From positions 1 through 45,446 of the forward strand of contig JAGUXT010000005.1 of assembly GCA_020061705.1 (NCBI GenBank): a stretch of DNA of 45,446 bases. Direction: 5' to 3'. This document shows, piece by piece, positions 14,574 through 42,395 of this stretch (the first letter of the stretch is position 1; each line of letters opens with the position of its first letter). The notes beneath the pieces were generated by a model, which saw only the letters and a program-made list of their open reading frames with translations, was not told where the DNA came from and made no database searches. Made by a program: the position numbers and the translations under genes. Origin of the DNA: Halothiobacillus sp. (lineage in GTDB: Bacteria > Pseudomonadota > Gammaproteobacteria > Halothiobacillales > Halothiobacillaceae).

Positions 14574-15227
14574 ATGAATTTAGCTATTTTCGACCTTGAC
14601 AACACCCTGCTCGCCGGCGACTCCGATTATTTATGGGGGCGTTTTCTCTGCGCGCGAGGCATTGTGGATTCAACCCAGTATGAAGCCGCCAACCAGCGTT
14701 TTTATGAAGACTATAAATTGGGCACGCTGGATATTGATGCCTTTCTGCGCTTTTCACTCGCCCCGCTCGCACTGCACAGCGCCGAACAACTGGCGGCCTG
14801 GCACGCAGAATTCATGCGCGAATTCATTGAGCCAATTATCCTGCCACAAGCCGTCGAATTGATTGAAAAGCACCGCGCACGTGGCGACCACCCGCTCATA
14901 ATCACCGCCACCAACGCCTTCGTCACCAAACCGATTGCACAACGGCTCGAGGTCGCCGATATTCTCGCCACCCAGCCTGAAATGCAGGACGGACGCTACA
15001 CAGGACGCTACATCGGCACGCCAACCTTTCAGCAGGGCAAAATCAAAGCTCTGCGCGACTGGACGCTCTCCCAGCCAAATCCCTTTGACAAGACATGGTT
15101 TTACAGCGATTCACGCAATGACCTACCACTGCTTGAGCAGGTCACGCACCCCGTCGCCGTGGATGCGGACCCAGTGCTTGCCGCAGAAGCCGCGCGCCGA
15201 GGCTGGCCGCAGATTTCATTGCGTTAG
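14574..15227 (+). CDS. HAD-superfamily subfamily IB phosphatase (SerB-like)
   Basis: Cytosolic phosphatase of the HAD-IB group. Motif I FDLDNTLL (residues 5-12) carries the nucleophile and acid/base aspartates, motif II is IITATNAFVTKP, and motif III/IV is YSDSRNDLPLL. The 217 residues include a helical cap between motifs I and II. The family is close to phosphoserine phosphatase, and its members next to rppH are usually annotated as histidinol-phosphatase or SerB-like. The substrate cannot be read from the sequence. The start ATG at 14574 is chosen because the family begins right at the LAIFDLDNTL strand. The gene ends at a REP-like palindrome. Confidence 0.88.
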   Translation: MNLAIFDLDNTLLAGDSDYLWGRFLCARGIVDSTQYEAANQRFYEDYKLGTLDIDAFLRFSLAPLALHSAEQLAAWHAEFMREFIEPIILPQAVELIEKHRARGDHPLIITATNAFVTKPIAQRLEVADILATQPEMQDGRYTGRYIGTPTFQQGKIKALRDWTLSQPNPFDKTWFYSDSRNDLPLLEQVTHPVAVDADPVLAAEAARRGWPQISLR

Positions 15228-15237
15228 GGATTTTTGA

Positions 15238-15267
15238 GGGTAGGTGCGAATTCATTCGCACCTACCC
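15238..15267. repeat. REP-like palindrome
   Basis: A perfect 14-bp inverted repeat with a 2-base centre (GGGTAGGTGCGAAT / ATTCGCACCTACCC) sits between the convergent HAD phosphatase and dcd genes. Its 22-base core is the same as the paired units at 27198-27253, so this is a dispersed family in this genome. Confidence 0.8.
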
Positions 15268-15272
15268 CAGCA

Positions 15273-15839
15273 TCAAGCCTTGGGCAAAGTCACCCCGGTT
15301 TGTCCCATGTACTTGCCGCCGCGATCCTTGTACGACACATCGCATACCTCATCCGACTCAAGGAACAACATCTGCGCCACACCTTCGTTGGCGTAAATTT
15401 TGGCGGGCAACGGCGTGGTATTGGAAAACTCCAGAGTCACATGCCCCTCCCACTCGGGTTCCAGTGGAGTGACATTCACAATAATGCCGCAACGTGCATA
15501 GGTGCTTTTTCCAAGGCAAATCGTCAAAACCGAGCGCGGAATGCGGAAATACTCAACTGTGCGTGCCAAAGCAAATGAATTCGGCGGAATAATGCACACA
15601 TCGGACTTCACCGAAACAAAACTTTTTTCGTCAAAATTTTTCGGATCAACAATCGTGCTGTTGATATTGGTGAAAATTCGAAACTCATCCGCGCAGCGCA
15701 CATCGTAGCCATAGCTCGACGTGCCATAGGAAATAATGCGCTGACCATCGGCCTCACGCACCTGCCCTTGCTCAAACGGTTCAATCATGCCGTGCTGCTG
15801 CGCCGCACGCCGAATCCAATGATCGGACTTGATACTCAT
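15273..15839 (-). CDS. dcd: dCTP deaminase
   Basis: Deaminates dCTP to dUTP, feeding thymidylate synthesis. The 188 residues begin [11 protein letters not shown], the standard length and N-terminus. Conserved segments are SSYGYDVRC, the catalytic region with [18 protein letters not shown] (the glutamate of LEFSN is the general base in the family) and [14 protein letters not shown] at the end. GGAGTT lies 7 bases before the chosen ATG; an ATG 12 bp upstream is less likely. Downstream is the REP-like palindrome and upstream the 143-bp fold-back element. Confidence 0.95.
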
Positions 15840-15867: not shown

Positions 15868-16010
15868 AGAACCTGCTTGCGATCTTGATCAACGGATGCA
15901 GCGCAAGCGGAAATCGGTCGAAAAAGCGCAGCATGGACAGACTATGTGAGCATTTTGAGACTGATTTCTACGCCACAATGCGCCGTTCAGCAAGATCGTA
16001 AACAAGTTCT
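15868..16010. repeat. 143-bp fold-back element, copy 1
   Basis: The terminal inverted repeats are 20 bp (15868-15887 and 15991-16010, beginning AGAAC and ending CGATCTTG), matching at 17 of 20 positions. The interior contains GGATGCAG, AAAAAGCGCAGCAT and ACTATGTGAGCATTTTGAG, all shared with copy 2 at 32245. It carries no coding frame of its own. It overlaps the 3' end of the asparaginase-like gene by 24 bp and supplies that gene's last codons. Confidence 0.75.
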
Positions 16011-16547
16011 AAATACGCCATTCTGACGGTCTTTAGCGATTTGCGTATAGGGCAAAACCAAGCCGTGCATCCCGATATAAACGCCCGGCGCATCATCCGC
16101 GAGCAACCAGCCCAGACTCAAGGCAACATTCATTGCTGCCTCTTGCACGCCAAAAGCATAAGGCAGCATCGCGCCAGTAAGAACAATCCGCTTCTTGGGG
16201 CACGCCTGCGCCACATGCGCCGCGCTCAGGTGCATGGTATCGGTACCATGCACCACCAGCACGCGGGCCTCATCCGCTTCAAGAATCGCCCGAGCCATGC
16301 TGGCACGATCCTGCTCATTCATGTCAAGGCTGTCCTTGTACAGCAGCCCTTGAATGCGGCAAGCCACATTGCCCTGCAATACCGCAAGAATGGACTCCAC
16401 CGCCTGATTATCCTGCGGCACAAACAGTTCGCCACGAATCGGATCGTAGCGCTTGTTTAATGTGCCACCGGTATTGAGTACCAATACCCCCCGAGACTGA
16501 CCCATTATCTTGCCCAAGCTTTTGACCTGTTGTTGTTTAGTCGCCAT
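15987..16547 (-). CDS. Short asparaginase-domain protein
   Basis: Related to the N-terminal domain of type-I/II L-asparaginases. It has the first threonine motif LVLNTGGTLN (residues 21-30), the second catalytic motif VVHGTDTMHLSAAHVA and the third IVLTGAMLPYA. It has 186 residues and lacks the C-terminal domain of full asparaginases (about 320 residues). Stand-alone proteins of this size exist in several gammaproteobacteria, so the length itself need not mean truncation. The last seven codons (R-T-C-L-R-S-C) and the stop lie inside the 143-bp fold-back element, so the natural C-terminus was replaced. Activity and substrate are uncertain. The start at 16547 lacks a clear ribosome-binding site; an ATG at 16505 is an alternative. 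Confidence 0.75.
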   Translation of the reverse strand: MATKQQQVKSLGKIMGQSRGVLVLNTGGTLNKRYDPIRGELFVPQDNQAVESILAVLQGNVACRIQGLLYKDSLDMNEQDRASMARAILEADEARVLVVHGTDTMHLSAAHVAQACPKKRIVLTGAMLPYAFGVQEAAMNVALSLGWLLADDAPGVYIGMHGLVLPYTQIAKDRQNGVFRTCLRSC

Positions 16548-20031: not shown

Positions 20032-20073
20032 GATGCACTCCCTACAAGACACTTTTCAAAACACTTTGGCAAC

Positions 20074-20175
20074 AGGACTTACGCAAAAGTGACCCAGCAA
20101 GACAAGGCGACGAAGACAGTACAACCTAGTACGGCGAGGCGCTTTAACGTCGCTGGGGCGGTTTTGCATAAATCC
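20074..20175. repeat. 102-bp fold-back element, copy A
   Basis: It starts AGGACTTACGCAAAAGTGAC and ends GGGGCGGTTTTGCATAAATCC, so the terminal inverted repeat (AGGACTTACGCAAAA) is partly decayed at the right end. It has the internal CCAGC/GCTGG pairing and a central GTAC...GTAC tip. It lies between the LysR gene 3' end and the small secreted-protein gene. Same family as the copies at 33006, 41300 and 42288. Confidence 0.8.
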
Positions 20176-20234
20176 CAGGCAAAACAAAGGCGACCGGTGT
20201 CGCCTTGATTGCGGAGCCTCAAAACAAGGCTCTA

Positions 20235-27140: not shown

Positions 27141-27197
27141 ATTGATTCCAAGAATTGCAGGATTTACACAAATGCGTCATCCGGCCAACAGTTTTTT

Positions 27198-27253
27198 GTA
27201 GGTGCGAATTCATTCGCACAGTTCATGCCATGTGCGAATGAATTCGCACCTAC
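27198..27253. repeat. BIME-like pair of REP palindromes
   Basis: Two 22-base units in opposite orientation (27198-27219 and 27232-27253), exact reverse complements of each other, are separated by 12 bases. Each unit is itself palindromic around GTGCGAAT-TC-ATTCGCAC. The unit matches the palindrome at 15238. It lies 13 bp after the rlpA stop and 57 bp before the tolC-like start, dividing two same-strand operons. It may terminate the cell-wall operon or shield mRNA 3' ends. Confidence 0.85.
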
Positions 27254-27266
27254 CTCCAGAACAAAC

Positions 27267-32244: not shown

Positions 32245-32386
32245 TAAGCCTCTTTACGATCTTGATCAACGGATGCAGTGCAAGCGGGAATGAGCCGAAA
32301 AAGCGCAGCATAGAAAACTATGTGAGCATTTTGAGGCTTATTTCTGCGCCGCAATGCGCCGTTCAGCAAGATCGTTGACAAGTCCT
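32245..32386. repeat. 143-bp fold-back element, copy 2
   Basis: Second copy of the element at 15868. It shares CGATCTTGATCAACGGATGC, AAAAAGCGCAGCAT, CTATGTGAGCATTTTGAG and CAATGCGCCGTTCAGCAAGA. The inner terminal repeat CGATCTTG/CAAGATCG is intact and the outer 8 bases at the left are decayed. A perfect tip hairpin CATAG-AAAA-CTATG is at the centre. The right end AAGTCCT runs into the ppa stop codon. Confidence 0.75.
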
Positions 32387-32925
32387 CAGTCCGCCATGCT
32401 GGCTTGCAGACGCTCCACCGAGGCAACAATTTCAGCGCGCGCCGCTGCCGCATCCGCCCAGCCATCCACCTTGACCCACTTGCCCTTTTCCAACGCTTTG
32501 TATTGCTCAAAGAAGTGCGCAATCTGTGCGCGCAGCAACTCCGGCAGGTCGGTGACTTCCTGCACGTGGTCATACAGCGGGGTCAGCTTGCCAAACGGAA
32601 CGGCTACCAGCTTGGCATCAAAGCCCGCCTCATCACTCATGCGTAACATCCCGACAGGACGGCAACGAATCACCGCACCGGGCTGCAGCGGGGTTGGCGT
32701 GACCACCAAAACATCGACAGGATCGCCGTCATCAGACAAGGTGTGTGGAATAAAACCATAATTGCAGGGGTAAAACATGGCGGTAGCCATAAAGCGATCG
32801 ACCACCAGCGCGCCGCTGTCCTTGTCGATTTCGTATTTGACCGGTGCACCCTGCGCAGGGATTTCGATAACCACATTGATGTCTTCAGGCAAGCTTTTAC
32901 CTGCAGGGATATTGTCGAGCAACAT
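32386..32925 (-). CDS. ppa: Inorganic pyrophosphatase
   Basis: Hydrolyses pyrophosphate, pulling biosynthetic reactions forward. The 179 residues have the family I signature [10 protein letters not shown] with its three metal-binding aspartates (near residues 67-72). [12 protein letters not shown] and the N-terminal [19 protein letters not shown] are also typical. Length is normal for the hexameric bacterial enzyme. GAGG is 9 bases before the ATG at 32925. The TGA stop shares its last base with the end of the fold-back element, so the element lies exactly against the gene. Divergent from adk. Confidence 0.96.
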
Positions 32926-33005
32926 AGCGCAAACCTCGTTAAGAATGATGGAGCGTGTATCATAATCGTTTTGGACGGTGGCGTTTCACTCCACCACCGC
33001 CATTT

Positions 33006-33107
33006 AGGACTTACGCAAAAGCGTTCCAGCAAGGCAAAGCGCCTAAGCCAGTACAACTTAGTACTGCGAGGTGCTTGAACGCCGCTGGGGCGGTTTTGCG
33101 CAAGTCC
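33006..33107. repeat. 102-bp fold-back element, copy B
   Basis: Starts AGGACTTACGCAAAAGCG and ends CGGTTTTGCGCAAGTCC; left flank TA, right end followed by AA. The central tip is AGTAC-AACTT-AGTACT. It occupies about half of the 206-bp divergent gap between ppa and adk and ends 24 bp before the adk start. It therefore lies in the 5' leader or promoter region of at least one of them. Confidence 0.85.
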
Positions 33108-33131
33108 AATCATTATCATACGGAGAAAAAC

Positions 33132-40668: not shown

Positions 40669-41301
40669 ATGTTAACCAAGCAGCCGAGCACCAAGCCCTT
40701 ACGCTACGCGTATACGCTTTGGTCACCTTTTTATGATGTGCTGCTTGGTGCGTCCGCAATACAGAAGGCGCGCCGCAATAGCCTGGCGTTACTGGATGAC
40801 TGGCTGGACAAAAGTGTACTTATCACAGGTATTGGCACGGGCTTGGACATTCCCTTGCTGCCCCGCGAGGCGATCTACACTGGCATCGACATAACACCGG
40901 CAATGTTGGATCGCGCACGTTGCTGTGCGCAAAAAAGCGATGCGCGGATTGAACTCCTAACAGGCAATGCGATGCAGTTGGACTTTGCCGACGAAACCTT
41001 TGACCGGGTTGTCCTGCACCTGATTCTTGCCGTCGTACCCGACCCACTCAGCGCGCTCTCCGAGGCAGCTCGTGTTCTCAAACCTGGCGGAGACATCCTG
41101 ATTCTGGACAAGTTTTTGCGACTGGGTCAAATCGCCCCCTTGCGCCGTGCCCTGAGTATCCTGACACGCAATCTCGCCACTCGCACTGATGTGGTGTTTG
41201 AAGACATACTCGCGCCATGTGACAACCTTAAAGTGATTCTCGACCAACCCGCGCTCTTCCGTGGCTGGTTTCGTCACATTGTATTGCGCAAAAATTTTTA
41301 G
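40669..41301 (+). CDS. Class I SAM-dependent methyltransferase
   Basis: A 210-residue Rossmann-fold methyltransferase. SAM-binding motif I is ITGIGTGLDIPLL (about 51-63), motif II includes YTGIDITPAML, and the Methyltransf_11 layout continues with FDRVVLHLILAVVPDP and RVLKPGGDILILDKF. The nearest named relatives are UbiE/PmtA-like lipid or quinone methyltransferases, but the substrate is not evident. The stop codon TAG (41299-41301) is formed at the left edge of a fold-back element: T and A of the flank plus the first G of the element. The original C-terminus may have been longer or different. Confidence 0.8.
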   Translation: MLTKQPSTKPLRYAYTLWSPFYDVLLGASAIQKARRNSLALLDDWLDKSVLITGIGTGLDIPLLPREAIYTGIDITPAMLDRARCCAQKSDARIELLTGNAMQLDFADETFDRVVLHLILAVVPDPLSALSEAARVLKPGGDILILDKFLRLGQIAPLRRALSILTRNLATRTDVVFEDILAPCDNLKVILDQPALFRGWFRHIVLRKNF

Positions 41302-41402
41302 GACTTACGCAAAAGTGTTCCAGCAAGGCAAAGCGCCGAAGACAGTACACCGAGTACGGCGAGGTGCTTGAACGCCGCTGGGGCGGTTTTGCGTAAGTCC
41401 TA
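41299..41402. repeat. 102-bp fold-back element, copy C (best preserved)
   Basis: The left end TAGGACTTACGCAAAAG and right end CGGTTTTGCGTAAGTCCTA form an essentially perfect terminal inverted repeat of 15-17 bases. Inside are CCAGC/GCTGG, CGCC/GGCG and a central GTAC-ACCGA-GTAC tip. It is flanked on both sides by TA. It lies between the methyltransferase and apaH, and its left edge supplies a stop codon. Confidence 0.9.
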
Positions 41403-41430: not shown

Positions 41431-42276
41431 ATGCCTACTTACGTCATCGGTGACCTGCAAGGTTGCCTCGACCCACTCAAACGCCTGCTTGATCAAATTC
41501 AATTCAACTCCGCCAAGGATACGCTTTGGTTTGTTGGCGATATTGTCAATCGCGGACCACAGTCACTGGAAACGCTGCGCTATGTACGTGACCTTACGGA
41601 GTCCTCCATCACTGTACTCGGCAATCACGATCTGCATCTGCTTGCCGTTGCCTTCACCGGCAAGAAAAGCAAAGGCAAAGATACCTTGGGTGACATTCTC
41701 CAGGCGCCCGATCGAGATGAGTTATTGGACTGGTTACGCAAGCGCCCGCTGGTGCACCATGATGCCAAACTGGCTGCACTCCTCGTGCACGCGGGCATAC
41801 CACCCACATGGGGTATTCAAGAAAGCTTGGCGCATGCCAATGAAGTGCAGCAAGTTTTGAGCGGCGACAGTGCCAGCGAGCTACTGAGCATGATGTACAA
41901 CGACCAGCCTGACCTCTGGCGCGATGATCTTAGTGAAAGCGAGCGTCTGATCTACAGCATCAACGCCTTCACTCGAATGCGGTACTTCAAAGCTGATGGG
42001 CGCATGGAGTTCAAAAACAAGGGCACGCCAAAACTCGCGCCTGCCAACCTGACGCCGTGGTTCGATATTCCACGCCAACCACTAGGCGCGCGCATATTCT
42101 TTGGACATTGGTCAACGCTGGGACTGATTCGCCTGCCAAACCACGCCGTGGAGGCGCTAGCCATGAACTCGGGTTGTTTATGGGGCGGGCGCCTAACAAC
42201 CATCCGTGCCGATGACCCTGAGTTACCCATGTATTCCGTGCCTTGTGCAGAAGCATCAAAACCCGGGCTAGAGTAA
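41431..42276 (+). CDS. apaH: Diadenosine tetraphosphatase (symmetrical)
   Basis: Splits Ap4A and relatives symmetrically to ADP and, in E. coli, removes Np4 caps from RNA. It thus complements RppH at 13913. The 281 residues carry the metallophosphatase motifs GDLQG (7-11), GDIVNRGP, GNHDLHLLAVA and the later HAGIPPTW and FGHWSTLG. GGGATAG precedes the ATG. It is separated from the upstream genes by fold-back copy C and followed by copy D. Confidence 0.96.
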   Translation: MPTYVIGDLQGCLDPLKRLLDQIQFNSAKDTLWFVGDIVNRGPQSLETLRYVRDLTESSITVLGNHDLHLLAVAFTGKKSKGKDTLGDILQAPDRDELLDWLRKRPLVHHDAKLAALLVHAGIPPTWGIQESLAHANEVQQVLSGDSASELLSMMYNDQPDLWRDDLSESERLIYSINAFTRMRYFKADGRMEFKNKGTPKLAPANLTPWFDIPRQPLGARIFFGHWSTLGLIRLPNHAVEALAMNSGCLWGGRLTTIRADDPELPMYSVPCAEASKPGLE

Positions 42277-42287
42277 AAAAGGCATAT

Positions 42288-42395
42288 AGGACTGAACCAA
42301 AAGCGCTCCAGCAAGGGAAAACGGCGAAAGCAGTATAACCAACCGGGTACGGCAAGGTGCCTGAACGTCGCTGTGACGGATTTGCGTAAGTCCTA
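42288..42395. repeat. 102-bp fold-back element, copy D (diverged)
   Basis: Left end TAGGACTGAACCAAAAGCGC (substituted in the terminal repeat) and right end GGATTTGCGTAAGTCCTA (intact); TA on both sides. The interior is recognisable by CTCCAGCAAGG, GGGTACGGCAAGGTGC and CTGAACGTCGCTG, with a longer tip. It lies between convergent apaH and rplQ, just before the rplQ terminator. Confidence 0.8.

Follow-up and report, generated by a model that had tools for sequence, protein, structure and literature searches.

The window, that is, the whole stretch of 45,446 nucleotides that was analysed, carries four copies of a fold-back element, all on the minus strand. Copy A (20073-20177) has the CA...CA form of the YA...TR ends, and is flanked by an exact 5-bp duplication (GGCAA; 20068-20072 and 20178-20182). 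Copy B (33005-33109) lies 5′ of an adenylate kinase gene (Pfam ADK) and is flanked by CCATT and TCATT, which agree at four of five positions. Copy C (41299-41402) has perfect terminal repeats of 15-16 bp and is flanked by ATTTT and ATTCT (four of five by position: A, T, T, T). Its first bases, TAG, are the stop codon of an upstream methyltransferase-like gene (40669-41301), and the open frame of this gene continues in the empty allele of a sister genome, G004, as read by eye from the alignment. Copy D (42287-42395) is decayed; it lies between a metallophosphatase-like gene (41431-42276) and the ribosomal protein L17 gene, and its flanks GCATA and ACATA agree at four of five positions. Window alignment, end-motif search and folding confirmed the four related copies where the original prediction had placed them, at 20074-20176, 33006-33108, 41300-41401, and 42288-42394. 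The predicted length of 102 bp holds for the size class but not exactly, since the copies span 102-107 bp. The common terminal sequences relate all four copies, but both ends are perfect in copy C only, and copies A, B, and D are mismatched in at least one end; likewise, the inner left and right motifs are present but are common to the copies only approximately. The end motif has 11 matches in the window at up to 3 mismatches (0.69 expected). The copies are imperfect palindromes, of which copy C pairs nearly end to end, and they fold better than shuffled sequences (z of -3.7 for A, -8.3 for B, and -7.8 for C), the decayed copy D being marginal at -2.0. A scan of the window against Rfam at gathering thresholds gave no match. 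The site of copy B is empty in the sister genome G003 and occupied in G004, that of copy C is empty in G004, and that of copy D is empty in G003. The proposed empty-site comparison revealed the absence of copies, but the flanks are too diverged for the duplication to be read base by base.

The ends of the element are YAGGACTTACGCAAAA...TTTTGCGTAAGTCCTR, with a 5-bp target duplication directly outside. For 110 non-redundant insertions, the left flank was compared with the right, mismatched pairs serving as background. Identity was 70-78% per position at five positions and about 30% for the mismatched pairs, and identity rises strongly above background at one offset only, which places a 5-bp duplication two bases outside GGACTT. 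Exact 5-mer duplications were found at 28 of 66 insertions in the own genome (G000) and 24 of 46 in G003, compared with 0.4% in the cross-pair background. They were also found at 12 of 24 further places, of which two are autonomous elements (L322 and L324, see below) and 22 have other interiors or lie in viral contigs. A search of the literature on the terminal sequence found nothing relevant. The original prediction noted TA on both sides of copies C and D, which is correct, but this TA belongs to the terminal repeat; the TA target duplication that was read from it is excluded, the duplication being one of 5 bp outside the YA...TR ends. A Tc1/mariner (IS630) type MITE with a TA target duplication would explain the TA at both ends of C, D, and many other copies, but CA or TG replaces TA without a matching opposite side, matching at the TA offset (T=2) is 0.73/0.70 against a background of 0.70/0.67 and so shows no excess, the own genome has 0 matches to the IS630 domain DDE_3 (PF13358), and the autonomous elements with matching ends are of the IS701/ISAba11 type, so that the 5-bp duplication and these cognate elements rule this mobilisation out almost beyond doubt. 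The inverted end pairs of about 100 bp and the conserved hairpin features also recall REP/REPIN-like palindromes moved by a RAYT (Y1) transposase; this is very improbable in view of the perfect terminal repeats, the 5-bp duplications, and the cognate DDE elements that share these ends.

How large is this family? Other copies, on whose existence the original prediction hung, are plentiful. There are about 90 in the own genome (2.27 Mb in 62 contigs), where 92 candidates yielded 40 scored copies and the ends gave 120 matches at up to 1 mismatch versus 3 for a reversed control pattern. Of the four sister genomes, three contain copies (many in G003, some in G004, and few in G002), and none was found in G001. 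Single matches were found in two genomes of the same taxonomic family (G012 and G014) and in one of the same class (G047). With this abundance and no transposase gene inside 102-107 bp, the prediction of an abundant non-autonomous inverted-repeat element is upheld: the window element is a MITE, a non-autonomous transposable element. Eight near-consensus copies in G003 (L094, L426, L118, L429, L091, L313, L092, and L083) end at TTTTGCGTAA, without the last bases and without a duplication. Several of them abut gene starts (rnr, zipA, and a nifA-like gene, by eye) and the gene order nearby seems normal; a deletion or an assembly artefact may be responsible. At one site common to G003 (L033) and the own genome (L022), the element lies in opposite orientations, due to an inversion or an independent insertion.

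The same ends also bound other interiors. The sequence TAGGACTTACGCAAAA was found in 12 of 370 genomes. In seven of the genomes (G085, G095, G155, G191, G273, G313, and G008), the same ends bound fold-backs whose interiors are unrelated and whose lengths range from 50 to about 180 bp; several of these fold-backs have exact 5-bp duplications. These elements with other interiors and the same 16-bp ends are from Gammaproteobacteria genomes. A 43-bp copy in G004 (L117) consists of the ends and almost no interior. Thus, the ends are the mobile signal, and the core is not part of them. In G085 (L289), a pair of ends lies 2.8 kb apart, and no transposase-like ORF was seen by eye between them. The same ends also enclose an interior of CCCTCTCCCC-type repeats in another element, about 170 bp long, which was observed in G003 (L099, L105, and L108), the own genome (L121), and G008 (L290).

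The original prediction proposed finding an insertion sequence with the same ends. In genome G058, three contigs terminate, and a fourth starts, about 80-95 bp inward of such ends; the coding tail there, ..YIYITFA, has its stop codon in the terminal repeat. These contig ends reveal a collapsed IS. The short C-terminal peptide had no match in plasmids, Pfam, or NCBIfam, and a search of genomes related to G058 with the coding tail revealed intact ISs in Thioploca (L322) and Legionellales (L324). Their transposases of 342-374 aa match NCBIfam NF049921 (IS701 family; E-values of 2e-122 and 1e-112) and Pfam DDE_Tnp_1. GTDB contigs were scanned with an alignment of these two transposases, and with plasmid records included, 37 IS loci were examined. 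Most have the terminal repeat YAGGACTTACGC, that is, YAGGACTTACG(C/A)(A)AAA, and many have an exact 5-bp duplication, such as ACCTC in Paraburkholderia pBN3 and TTCAA in ISPlag1. Autonomous ISs with the same 16-bp ends occur in Thioploca, Legionellales, Paraburkholderia, Planktothrix (ISPlag1), and Chloroflexi. The terminal repeats of the window element agree with many of them at 16 of 16 positions or nearly so, and with ISAba11 over the first 13 bases. ISAba11 resembles the window element in its terminal repeats, TAGGACTTACGCA.., and in its 5-bp duplication, the target duplications TATAG and ATTTA having been described (PMC7885321). ISPlag1 resembles it in the terminal repeats CAGGACTTACGCA.. 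and in its own 5-bp duplication. In contrast to the window element, both include a transposase gene within a length of about 1.1-1.3 kb, and no likeness was seen beyond the ends. The ISAba11 transposase also belongs to NF049921, yet it is only 30% identical to that of the Thioploca IS. Thus, insertion sequences with the same ends were found as proposed, but they are of the IS701/ISAba11 type and not IS630.

Is an autonomous partner present in the host genus? A profile search with NF049921 gave nothing above the cut-off in G000-G004: no match in G000-G003 and one weak partial match in G004. Among the exact end matches listed for the own genome, none lies near a checkable contig end, unlike in G058. 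The host-genus assemblies are drafts. MITEs usually have an autonomous partner in their own genome, although this is no strict requirement. These results suggest that the element was mobilised in trans or that its source was lost or unassembled; the autonomous partner in the host genus is absent or unassembled.

Between the ends lies a conserved hairpin core. Covariance model R1, made from hairpins with unrelated arms including those of a gonococcal Correia element, Massilia, and viral contigs, detects it on the minus strand in copy A (20089-20160; 73.1 bits, E 2e-15), copy B (33021-33092; 56.7 bits, E 3e-11), copy C (41315-41385; 70.3 bits, E 1e-14), and copy D (42303-42378; 27.4 bits, E 7e-4). 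R1 also matches two MITE interiors on which it was not trained, in G273 (E 0.004) and G191 (E 0.006), as well as Correia copies left out of training. On a Massilia litorea plasmid, the BLAST match to the family consensus covers the core only, and the ends differ. The outer arms of this plasmid locus (L465, 270-390), GCCTAAC...GTTAGGC, resemble the R sites of integron attC (RYYYAAC/GTTRRRY), which may be a coincidence in a palindrome. Hairpin-tip patterns revealed long hairpins with differing outer arms in viral contigs; a related tip motif, GCTCACATA..TATGCTGCGC, had no matches in viral sequences. In Burkholderiales, the core occurs at 12 places in a Cupriavidus metallidurans CH34 record and at 5 in an Eleftheria terrae record, with the arms AGAG...TATCAAAA or AGAG...TAACAAAA in the one copy sampled per record. 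An Rfam scan by E-value of three core loci gave as its sole match a sub-threshold sRNA at the Correia locus.

The Correia locus (L469) came from a Neisseria gonorrhoeae record found by BLAST. Correia elements (CREE) are not known to occur outside Neisseria. They are MITEs of about 104 bp with the same hairpin core, GCGTTGCCTCGCCTTGCCGTACTATCTGTACTGTCTTCGGCTTCGTCGCCTTG, but they reside in Neisseria and their ends, TATAGTGGATTAA..., are unrelated to YAGGACTTACGCAAAA; the Correia terminal repeat TATAGTGGATTAA was looked for in the window element and not found. Thus, a different mobilising system is likely for them. MITEAba12 of Acinetobacter is another MITE, 113 bp long, whose 16-bp TIR matches a known IS (PMC6382973), but it differs in the TIR GGCTTTGTTGCACAAA, a 9-bp duplication, and its partner ISAba12.

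The original prediction held that the conserved interior pairs along its length, which is borne out by folding and by covariation. In an almost gapless alignment of 15 cores (A4), 86.6% of the cells are paired versus 70.5% in shuffles, a percentage that is inflated because the structure was read from the same elements. More weight falls on the double changes: 80 cells versus 28.5 expected (sd 4.6), reached in 0 of 500 shuffles, although related sequences can exceed shuffles. Shifting the pairing partners abolishes the signal. A test for covarying pairs in stem and tip had been proposed; helix 1 (the arms) and helix 2 do covary, but helix 3 (the tip) is nearly constant. The internal-loop bases are also nearly constant (GTT; CTTC or CTGC; and the TT of GCCTTG). 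Selection on the fold, which was also suggested, is thus supported across unrelated elements but only weakly within the host genus. There, the interiors of 107 copies have 181 broken pairs versus 201 in shuffles and 23 double changes versus 8.8, the own-genome copies alone are within the shuffle range, and RNAalifold gives a weak structure. Where a site is common to G000 and G003 and both flanks can be aligned, the MITE copies are 85-98% identical, compared with about 73-90% for the flanks. Orthologous copies in the host genus are no more conserved than their flanks and decay about equally, so that any local function is putative. The module is conserved across elements, while individual copies mostly drift, as expected if master copies are selected for mobility.

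Taken together, the window element is very probably a MITE mobilised by an IS701-group transposase of the ISAba11/ISPlag1 type and carrying an exchangeable hairpin module. On sequence grounds, I take the ends, the duplication length, and the cognate transposase family to be established. A DDE transposase supplied in trans would bind and cut the ends, and insertion would duplicate 5 bp of the target; transposition in trans seems probable. The module between the ends, with its covarying helices and constant internal loops, would be exchangeable; it is present in Neisseria Correia elements too, and in further hairpins whose ends differ. The autonomous partner may have gone from the host genus or escaped assembly, and most copies would now be drifting. 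The core is conserved and structured, and the ends and the core occur separately. For this orphan MITE family, a likely mobilising transposase type can now be named and the reading of the target duplication is corrected. Moreover, one terminal sequence of 13-16 bp has been kept from ISAba11 to Chloroflexi-type elements, even though the transposases are only about 30% identical.

What is the core for? It would most likely act as a hairpin, either in RNA, with effects on RNase III processing or mRNA stability of the kind reported for Correia elements, or in single-stranded DNA as the element is mobilised. For Correia elements, the reported properties are binding and cleavage by RNase III, promoter activity, and, in the long forms, IHF binding (PMC2649163). 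These reports make a role in RNA the nearest precedent. I tentatively propose that the module is an independently conserved cassette in MITEs of several unrelated transposase systems in Beta- and Gammaproteobacteria, kept because its fold, in RNA or single-stranded DNA, is of use to the element or the host. The end classes in which it is found are the ISAba11 type (the window), Correia (Neisseria), the AGAG..TAACAAAA type (Burkholderiales), and several single cases. Alternatively, though this is somewhat doubtful, the core may be only what is left of a single ancestral MITE that spread by recombination; the covariation would then stem from self-templated (quasi-palindrome) mutation of the hairpin and not from function. 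The weak covariation within the genus, most of it at a few adjacent pairs (34-37 with 65-68), and the drift of copies at the rate of their flanks are consistent with such a remnant. However, across unrelated arms the loop bases stay constant while the helices change, and self-templating would not preserve loops; in the genus copies too, the GTT and GCCTTG loops are the least divergent parts (0.019 and 0.022, versus 0.058 for the ends). The common core ties Correia elements to hairpins of many different bacteria; what it is for becomes testable.

Other hairpins were observed in the window. A further fold-back repeat, about 150 bp long, occurs at 15872-16025 and 32249-32401, with MFE values of about -63 and -70 kcal/mol, and it gave no match to R1. 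The G004 orthologue lacks the copy at 32252-32387, so this repeat may be another mobile hairpin family. Near-perfect hairpins of the GGTAGGTGCGAATTCATTCGCACCTACC type lie at 15225-15275 and 27177-27255, and a decayed end, AGGATTTACACAAAT, at 27159 adjoins the latter.
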